In this document: piece after piece, positions 54,035-57,435 of the stretch
How positions within the stretch are numbered: position 1 is the stretch's first letter
How the letters are laid out: each line of letters begins with the position of its first letter
DNA from: Sulfuricurvum sp.
Lineage (GTDB): Bacteria; Campylobacterota; Campylobacteria; Campylobacterales; Sulfurimonadaceae
DNA: 64,000 bases
NCBI GenBank assembly: GCA_028718525.1
Contig: JAQULP010000009.1
Span: 1 to 64,000, forward strand
Direction of reading: 5' to 3'
Position numbers and translations under genes: made by a program
Notes under the pieces: generated by a model
What the model was told of the DNA's origin: nothing
The model's input: the letters and a program-made list of their open reading frames with translations, nothing else
Database searches by the model: none

Positions 54035-54448
54035 ATGGAAGCTATGTATACAACCGGACTGAATATCCACTATTTTGGGGTAATCGTATTAATGGGGATT
54101 GTCGTCTTCAATATTACGTTGCTATCTCTTTCCCACCATATTATCCGCTACGCCAAACGAATGCGGATCGTAATGCCTATCTCAGGATCTTTGATCGCTT
54201 TGATTCTGTTTACGGGTGCGGTGATGATGGCCGCTAAACATCTGCATTTTACTTTTGCCAATAGTGCCATGATTGTGATCGGTGTGGTCATGATTATTCT
54301 TGAAGCCAAACGGTACAAGACGCTTAAACGCCAGACTGATATTACCAAAGAAGGGGCTTTTGTCGAGTACAAAAAGAAAGCATTCCGTTTTTTGGGGATT
54401 GAAATGGGTATGCTGGTAGTAATGACTCTATGGATGATGGTGCAATGA
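54035..54448 (+). CDS. Four-helix membrane protein (Cj0157c-like position)
   Basis: 137 residues with four helices (about 13-32, 45-65, 73-90 and 118-136). No motif identified. As I recall, a similar gene precedes rsmE in Campylobacter jejuni, and here too the stop overlaps the rsmE ATG. Function unknown. Confidence 0.65.
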   Translation: MEAMYTTGLNIHYFGVIVLMGIVVFNITLLSLSHHIIRYAKRMRIVMPISGSLIALILFTGAVMMAAKHLHFTFANSAMIVIGVVMIILEAKRYKTLKRQTDITKEGAFVEYKKKAFRFLGIEMGMLVVMTLWMMVQ

Positions 54449-55116
54449 AATTTCTCCTTAATGACGATGCCGGTTCGCAAGAACTGAGTGTATCGGGTGA
54501 TGATTATAAATATCTGATAAAAGTAAGACGCCACAGGAGTGGCGATTTGATCACGTTTCGTTCGCGTACGTTATTAAGCGAAGAGTACCGTTACCGATTG
54601 GAACATACGGATGGGAAAAACGCTTTTTTCTCACTGCAGAGCCATCACCATTCGGTGTGTGAACGGGCGCAAAATCTTCATATAGGCTGGTGTTTAATAG
54701 ATCCGAAAACGATTGAAAAGACATTGCCGATGCTGACAGAACTTGGGGTTACCAAGATCACTTTTATCCATTGCCGCCGATCTCAACAAAATTTTCGGCT
54801 TGATTTTGAGCGATATAATCGTATAATGGAAAGTGCAATCATGCAATGTGGAAGGACTTCGCTTATTACATTGGGGCAATCACCTACCTTAAACGCTTTT
54901 CTAAAAGAGTATCCGGAATCGGTTATATTTGATTTTGGAGGGGAACCATTGAATGCCGAAGAACGTATCGAAACGGTGATTATAGGCTGTGAAGGGGGAT
55001 TTGATGAGGTGGAACGGAAACAATTTTCTGCCCATCGTATCCGACTTTTTCCTCTGCCGATGATTTTACGTTCGGAGACGGCTGCCGTGGCGGTAGCAAG
55101 TGCCTTGATTCACTAA
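54445..55116 (+). CDS. rsmE: RsmE, 16S rRNA m3U1498 methyltransferase
   Basis: 223 residues from the ATG at 54445 that overlaps the preceding stop. A PUA-like N-terminal domain and a SPOUT C-terminal domain, with IIGCEGGFDEVE and LPMILRSETAAVAVASAL at the trefoil-knot SAM site. It methylates the 16S decoding region. Normal length. Confidence 0.92.
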   Translation: MKFLLNDDAGSQELSVSGDDYKYLIKVRRHRSGDLITFRSRTLLSEEYRYRLEHTDGKNAFFSLQSHHHSVCERAQNLHIGWCLIDPKTIEKTLPMLTELGVTKITFIHCRRSQQNFRLDFERYNRIMESAIMQCGRTSLITLGQSPTLNAFLKEYPESVIFDFGGEPLNAEERIETVIIGCEGGFDEVERKQFSAHRIRLFPLPMILRSETAAVAVASALIH

Positions 55117-55147
55117 AATTTTCCTCAATTTACGATAAGGATAGCCG

Positions 55148-57088
55148 ATGATTTTCGATCCAAAAAAGAAAAAATTAGCCACAATGTTTTCGATAATGTT
55201 CGCGGGGGCCTTTATCGTCATATCTCTGGTCTTTTATCTGTATAATTATCATTCGCAGAAGAATGCCTTACATCAAAACCTTCACTCGAAAGCTTCGTCG
55301 ATTCTTGATTTTGCCGATGTGCTGTTAGAGTCACGTAATGAAAAATTTTTTAACGGTGAATCGGCCGAGATTCCTCAAGTTATCCAAAATGACGTCTTCG
55401 GAAAATTTACAAAAATCTCTGAAGGAAAAGTATTCTTTAAAGAGGCTTCCGACACCCCTGTCGTTCCGACAAATAAAGCAAAACCGTATGAGAGCGAAGC
55501 GATTGCCGCATTTAAAGCGGACCGAAGTTTAAAAGAGCTGGAACGTTTTGTCGAGGATGACAATAAACGTTATTACATGCTTTCGCGCCCTATTATCAGC
55601 GAGAGCCGATGTATTCAATGCCATCCAACCTGGACTCCCGATAATGTCGTAGCAATAGAAGATGTCCGTATTGATACGGTTGATTTTGATGCCGCGTTAT
55701 CGGAGAATTTCTGGATTAATTTTTTTACGGCACTCGTCAATATTATTATTATCCTTTTGTTAACCCATTTTCTATTCAGTCGCTATGTTGCTAAGCGGAT
55801 CAATAAAGTCCTTGACGTTATTTTCCGTGTGGAAAAGGGACATTTTCATATTGACGATTTAATCGCCGGAGAGCCGATTGAACAGGGAAGTACAAAAAAT
55901 GAGATCGATCGGCTGTATCGCCACCTGAATAACATGGTGGATACGCTTCGTCCGGTTATCGCTAACGTTGTCGGACAAAGTAAGCAGATTGCCTTTGAAG
56001 CCAGTTACGGATATGTGAGGATAGATCAAACCAACGGCTACGTGAAAGAACAAAATGAGTCTTTGGAACATTCTCAGGAATTAATCAACAACGTGCTGCA
56101 TTTAAATGAAGCGGTAGGGCGTAAATTAGAAGAGTTGTTAAACGGTTCGTTGGAGTCGGTTAAACAGATCGAAAAAGGGCAAGATGTCGTTCACTCCAAT
56201 GTCAAAGAGAGCGTTGCGGCTGCCGATGCGATGGATGCGACTGCGGCGGCTATCCATGAACTCAGACGTTTTTCAAATGAGATATCCTCGACTATGGAGA
56301 TAATGACCGATATCGCCGATGAGACCAACCTAATTGCATTGAATGCTGCGATCGAAGCTGCACGAGCCGGTGAACATGGACGCGGATTTGCCGTTGTAGC
56401 CGAAAAGATTAGAGAATTAGCCGAAGTTTCACTTAATAATGCGCAAACGGTTACCGGGTTATTAGGAAAAATTCACGAACATATCAACGCCGTAACCAAA
56501 AATGCGGAACGTTCAAAAGGGGTTATTACCGAGCTTAATCAGAGTTCGCAGGAACTCAATAACCGATTTATTGAGATTCGAAGCGGCATCGACATGATGA
56601 CGGAAGTCTTGAATCACTTTAAACATGAATTCAACGAAGAGACGGAAGCTCTAAAAGGTGCCGGCCATGAGTTAATGAAAGTCAAAGAATCAAGTACGGT
56701 TTTAGTAACAAACGCGGATCATTCCAAAGCTATTATGGGAGAACTGGTCCACCGGGGCGGGGAACTCAAAACTTTGGCGGACGGATTTGAAATCGTCCTT
56801 CAGAATAATCGAAAAGCTTCCCGTACCATTATTACACCGCCTTTGCATACTAAAGTAAAAACGGCCGGGGCAAGTTTAGATGCGTATCTCTTTGATAACT
56901 CAACCAGCGGTGTTTCGTTCTATGCAACGGATGGGAACAGTCCGCGATTGAATAAAGGGGATAAAGGAAAAATTGTTTTAGATATACCTTTGGATGGTGA
57001 AAGCGAAATTAATTTTGAAGTTGTGTATATCAGTGAAGAGGTTGTCCAAGATGCATTTTTCTACGGTGCGAAACGGATAAAATATTGA
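55148..57088 (+). CDS. Chemoreceptor with periplasmic haem-c motif and C-terminal PilZ domain
   Basis: 646 residues. Helix 1 is at about 14-35; a periplasmic domain of the Tll0287/DUF3365 type follows and contains CIQCH at 155-159, a covalent haem site. Helix 2 (about 192-214) leads to a HAMP-like linker. The methyl-accepting hairpin is [34 protein letters not shown], shown here only by its start [17 protein letters not shown] (about 390-410). After residue 550 comes a PilZ domain with both c-di-GMP motifs complete: RKASR (555-559) and DNSTSG (583-588). The receptor may read redox, oxygen or nitric oxide through haem and be modulated by c-di-GMP; this is inference. It sits alone between rsmE and rpmE. 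Confidence 0.85.
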
Positions 57089-57234: not shown

Positions 57235-57435
57235 ATGAAAAAAGATCTTCATCCAAACGTCGTAGAGTGTGCAGTAAGCTGTGCATGTGGTAATACATTT
57301 ACAACAACGAGTACCAAAGAATCGATTCGTGTCGATATTTGTAACGAATGTCACCCGTTTTATACCGGTTCTGAGCGTCAAGTAGATACGGCCGGACGTA
57401 TTGATAAATTCAAAAAACGTTACGCTCTAAATTAA
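57235..57435 (+). CDS. rpmE: Ribosomal protein bL31 (zinc-binding type)
   Basis: 66 residues with [22 protein letters not shown] and [10 protein letters not shown], the cysteines of the zinc-containing C+ form. A surface protein of the 50S subunit. CACAAGGTAATAC precedes the ATG. rpmE before rsmI and rlmB is a conserved order in this phylum, as I recall. Confidence 0.96.

Follow-up and report, generated by a model that had tools for sequence, protein, structure and literature searches.

A Campylobacterota chemoreceptor predicted to join a periplasmic haem-c sensor to a c-di-GMP-type PilZ domain

The locus and the organisation of the receptor

The window, which is the whole 64,000-nucleotide stretch of Sulfuricurvum DNA analysed here, carries a chemoreceptor gene between rsmE and rpmE. 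Its features are listed below, with receptor residues (aa) in brackets.

54430..55116, + strand: rsmE, upstream flank, on the same strand as the receptor
55137..55142, + strand: putative ribosome-binding site AAGGAT, read directly, about 5 nt 5' of the ATG and inside the 31-nt gap after rsmE
55148..57088, + strand: chemoreceptor gene, an intact ATG-initiated ORF of 646 aa encoding, in order, TM1, sCache_heme, TM2, HAMP, MCP hairpin and PilZ
55175..55246, + strand: TM1 (aa 10-33), from hydropathy
55247..55708, + strand: Tll0287-like/sCache_heme sensor domain (aa 34-187)
55346..55348, + strand: Phe67, aligned with Met60, the distal haem ligand in GSU0935
55610..55624, + strand: CIQCH, predicted haem-c attachment motif (aa 155-159)
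55715..55783, + strand: TM2 (aa 190-212), from hydropathy
55772..55951, + strand: HAMP domain (aa 209-268), from Pfam
55952..56791, + strand: MCP signalling hairpin (aa 269-548), tip near E409, Pfam PF00015
56804..57085, + strand: PilZ domain (aa 553-646)
56810..56824, + strand: RxxxR motif RKASR (aa 555-559)
56894..56911, + strand: [DN]xSxxG motif DNSTSG (aa 583-588)
57235..57435, + strand: rpmE, downstream flank

By hydropathy, two transmembrane helices flank the sensor domain. A Pfam scan of the full-length 646-aa protein reported Tll0287-like (42-161, E 2e-11), HAMP (209-268, E 1e-5) and MCPsignal (356-506, E 4e-29), and did not report PilZ. When the C-terminus was scanned in isolation, PF07238 (PilZ) passed with 26.5 bits against a curated cut-off of 22.5 (E 8e-6). 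The original prediction, that one polypeptide contains a periplasmic haem motif, an MCP hairpin and a c-di-GMP-type PilZ domain, was borne out by Pfam, by the folds and by motif conservation across the family, and the letters it gave for the three motifs were exact.

The tip of the signalling hairpin is conserved, and the region from aa 262 to 547 is unchanged in length in 39 members. The strict methylation-site consensus had no match in the receptor sequence; many chemoreceptors diverge from that canonical consensus. Each arm seems to be about 14 residues longer than in E. coli Tsr, and this arm length would presumably fit class 40H. In the Sulfurimonas clade (L039-L044, L063), the tip reads HGRSF (HGRTF in L043) instead of HGRGF, in a region that is otherwise highly conserved.

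A search of 100 related genomes yielded 14 full-length members, and an alignment-based scan of genome contigs yielded 36 loci, including Sulfuricurvum, Sulfurimonas, Sulfurospirillum and Hydrogenimonas; a single-sequence scan of the contigs, unlike the alignment-based one, found no relatives. We aligned 39 distinct sequences, and the family counts given here cover Campylobacterota. Members share as little as about 40% identity. CxxCH is present in 39/39, PilZ in 35/39, and among the PilZ-bearing members RxxxR is kept in 35/35 and [DN]xSxxG in 33/35 (the exceptions are L059 and L067), indicating that the motifs in the receptor exceed chance. The receptor belongs to a conserved family and is not a single curiosity. 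Its distribution within the class is patchy: the PilZ-tailed receptor occurs in 13 of 397 sampled genomes, always as an uninterrupted frame of 641-707 codons.

The gene starts 31 nt after rsmE. As had been claimed, it sits inside an otherwise conserved order, since no gene separates rsmE from rpmE in 27 of the 29 same-genus rsmE loci examined; in the other two (L076, L094), rpmE was not found downstream of rsmE within the available stretch. The further suggestion that the gene was added there held only in part. The slot is indeed empty in most congeners, but it holds an ortholog in several other Sulfurimonadaceae genera. L035, L036, L037, L038 and L060 have the ortholog between rsmE and rpmE; in L052 it follows rsmE immediately, as it also does in L066, where the contig ends. 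None of these flanking genes accompanies the closest orthologs (L032, L033, L034, L045), and in the genomes of two of them (G007, G024) the rsmE-rpmE pair is empty. Slot occupancy in other genera, together with the receptor tree, led us to reject a recent insertion; these sequence comparisons fit better with an ancestral site at rsmE-rpmE, followed by loss and relocation in relatives.

The periplasmic sensor and its distal haem position

The Tll0287-like profile (PF11845) passed with 44.9 bits against a curated cut-off of 24.1 and matched 31/31 members. Profiles of the sensor and of PilZ gave no meaningful match among PDB sequences, after which fold comparison was used for both. The AlphaFold model of the sensor, built from 31 sequences, had a mean pLDDT of 93.5. 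Its first-ranked Foldseek match in the PDB was the haem-c protein Tll0287 (5b82, E 7.8e-5), with a modest TM-score of about 0.5; the other top matches were 3b42 (GSU0935) and 3b47, with Cache domains such as DcuS and CitA lower down. The source genome encodes three other Tll0287-like proteins (four with the receptor), one of them fused to GGDEF and another to a histidine kinase. The former (L098:1354-2658, contig C26) is a candidate haem-controlled diguanylate cyclase, possibly an upstream partner of the receptor; the latter is at L099:535-2169 (contig C4), and a short Tll0287-like copy is present at L100. A CcsA-type cytochrome c assembly gene is present in 7/7 other genomes tested, 6 of them receptor-bearing, and was not found in the source assembly, which is 83% complete.

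In GSU0935 of Geobacter sulfurreducens the distal haem ligand is Met60 (PMC8396549). When the two sequences were aligned, Met60 fell on F67 of the receptor. In a joint alignment, anchored by a conserved Gly nearby, every family member has Phe at this position (39/39) and every sibling Campylobacterota haem receptor has Met (11/11), so the receptor lacks the Geobacter-type distal Met ligand. Outside the CxxCH motif, the sensor has no Met, His or Cys that is invariant across the 39-member alignment. Because Phe67 replaces the distal Met, we infer that the haem may be five-coordinate or water-ligated and accessible to gas, probably NO or CO, and would not act as a Met-switched redox sensor.

The haem part might instead sense redox potential or oxygen, as proposed for DcrA and GSU0935, with c-di-GMP gating energy taxis much as in Azospirillum Aer, which pairs FAD with PilZ. 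The receptor shares its sensor fold and haem motif with GSU0935 and GSU0582, two receptors proposed to undergo a redox-linked switch of spin state and ligand (PMC8396549), and Aer of A. brasilense does couple a redox cofactor to PilZ (PMC6406031). However, the redox-switching Met is Phe throughout the family and no other invariant candidate residue lies outside the motif. As to oxygen, the signalling-type sCache_heme protein that has been tested bound NO stably, with slow release, and formed no stable O2 complex (PMC12889525). We therefore regard this alternative as rather unlikely, although it is the strongest of those considered.

The reading that we prefer, an open haem site that would respond to gas, also draws on the Geobacter receptors GSU0582 and GSU0935 themselves, which bind CO and NO (PMC8396549). 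The original prediction had spoken of redox or gas sensing. Phe67 and the NO-binding precedent favour the second and disfavour a Met-switched version of the first; by sequence and analogy they argue for NO or CO over O2 or redox as the input. cd1 nitrite reductase-type genes showed no association with the receptor (7 of 13 carriers, 8 of 18 non-carriers), so a link to NO production through their co-occurrence was dropped and NO as the ligand rests on analogy.

The PilZ tail and its genomic setting

The AlphaFold model of the tail had a pLDDT of 82, and Foldseek matched it to PilZ structures with probability 1.00, among them c-di-GMP-bound BcsA, VCA0042, Alg44, YcgR and MapZ. The domain adjoins the end of the signalling helix without a long linker. 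Tail identity within the family falls to about 30%. PilZ is hard to detect: Pfam called it in just one of the 9 full-length members scanned, E 0.01 was reached by 13 of the 29 tails scanned in isolation, and a PilZ search of the receptor's own genome missed the gene. With so few Pfam calls, the architecture is hidden by annotation, which may be why the pairing of haem c with PilZ is unreported in the open-access papers that we searched.

Four members (L057, L058, L061, L062) lack PilZ and end exactly at the residue where it would start, indicating that the receptor can work without this domain. They form one clade with support of 100/100. With 11 further Campylobacterota haem receptors as the outgroup, joined by a very long root branch (3.71), this clade is nested among PilZ-bearing members, which suggests, with moderate support from these sequences, a single loss of PilZ. 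One genome, BB8, has both kinds (L049, L058).

This separability would also suit a PilZ domain that positions the receptor, by polar recruitment or choice of array partner, or that is a c-di-GMP-dependent docking site, in either case without modulating sensing; MapZ, one of the fold matches, affects chemotaxis via CheR. Yet the c-di-GMP motifs are conserved nearly as well as the haem motif, and the junction with the signalling helix leaves no long linker. We consider such a role improbable. That the tail is a structural cap that has lost c-di-GMP binding is very improbable: many members do score low in Pfam PilZ and the second motif is altered in L059 and L067, but both motifs are otherwise retained in tails that share as little as about 30% identity.

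In the preferred reading, the PilZ domain would bind c-di-GMP and modulate signalling. The source genome (1.94 Mb) has about 53 GGDEF matches, or about one per 36 kb, 17 CheW-domain matches and only one other detected PilZ protein, making the receptor one of the few visible PilZ effectors. The other PilZ protein has 373 aa (L001:730-1851, contig C12); its ratio to the GGDEF matches is unusual, though PilZ is under-detected. GGDEF/EAL genes neighbour the receptor in L032, L038, L064 and L067; a few such neighbours are expected by chance at this GGDEF density, and we dropped them as a functional link. In L038 (8100-10063), PAS-GGDEF and EAL frames, possibly a single split gene, lie between the receptor and rpmE.

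Proposed mechanism and relation to known receptors

On balance we think it probable that the protein is a two-input transmembrane receptor, in which an open-site haem c senses NO or CO outside the cell and PilZ binds c-di-GMP inside. A covalent c-type haem in the periplasmic sCache_heme domain would sense a small diatomic ligand (NO and CO are the likeliest) or the reaction of that ligand with the haem iron, the invariant Phe in place of the Geobacter redox-switch Met leaving the sixth site open. The signal would cross the membrane and pass through HAMP and the coiled-coil hairpin to control CheA/CheW. PilZ, positioned where the returning helix ends, would lie near HAMP and the membrane. Binding c-di-GMP through RxxxR and [DN]xSxxG, it could adjust the gain or coupling of the receptor according to whether the cell is to swim or settle, in a direction that we can only infer. 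That c-di-GMP would gate the haem sensor is a sound expectation by analogy with Azospirillum Tlp1 and Aer and Azorhizobium Cbp1.

More tentatively, and in our view somewhat doubtfully, the receptor may represent an unrecognised class, of long standing in Campylobacterota and missed by Pfam annotation, in which an open-site haem c reads NO or CO and c-di-GMP decides whether the reading steers the flagella, that is, a single-molecule coincidence detector. Such a detector would link gas taxis to the decision to swim or settle. If the two-input model is true, a single protein combines a gas or redox signal from outside with the intracellular messenger that decides between swimming and biofilm, and the naturally occurring forms, some with the PilZ tail and some lacking it, offer a clean test system for c-di-GMP gating of a chemoreceptor. 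sCache_heme chemoreceptors would also gain an architecture that standard annotation overlooks.

As the original prediction recognised, haem receptors and PilZ receptors are each already known. GSU0935 and GSU0582 (3B42, 3B47) resemble the receptor in having a transmembrane helix, a haem-c Cache/PAS-like periplasmic domain with CxxCH, a second transmembrane helix, HAMP and MCP; they differ in that their described architecture is without PilZ and that GSU0935 has Met60 where the receptor has Phe67. The sCache_heme family (DUF3365/Tll0287, PF11845; PMC12889525) shares the profile, the fold, CxxCH and a fused signalling module; PilZ is absent from the main text of that paper, which does not describe an MCP-PilZ combination. 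Aer and Tlp1 of A. brasilense are, like the receptor, membrane chemoreceptors with a C-terminal PilZ domain, and their PilZ tails matter in aerotaxis (PMC6406031, PMC13401364). Aer differs in its cytoplasmic PAS-FAD input, and for Tlp1 a typical oxygen-sensing domain is not described; no haem c is reported for either. Cbp1 of Azorhizobium caulinodans is also a chemoreceptor with PilZ, and it binds c-di-GMP through the RxxxR motif of that domain (PMC6454048); it differs in being soluble, without a transmembrane region, and the part of its description available to us does not mention a haem-c sensor. We found no description of a chemoreceptor combining a haem-c sensor with PilZ in the open-access literature. 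While the constituent families are known, their pairing, kept across many Campylobacterota, seems to be undescribed so far; as far as our searches reach, the novelty lies in the combination itself, in its conservation, in how little of it annotation reveals and in the replacement of Met by Phe.
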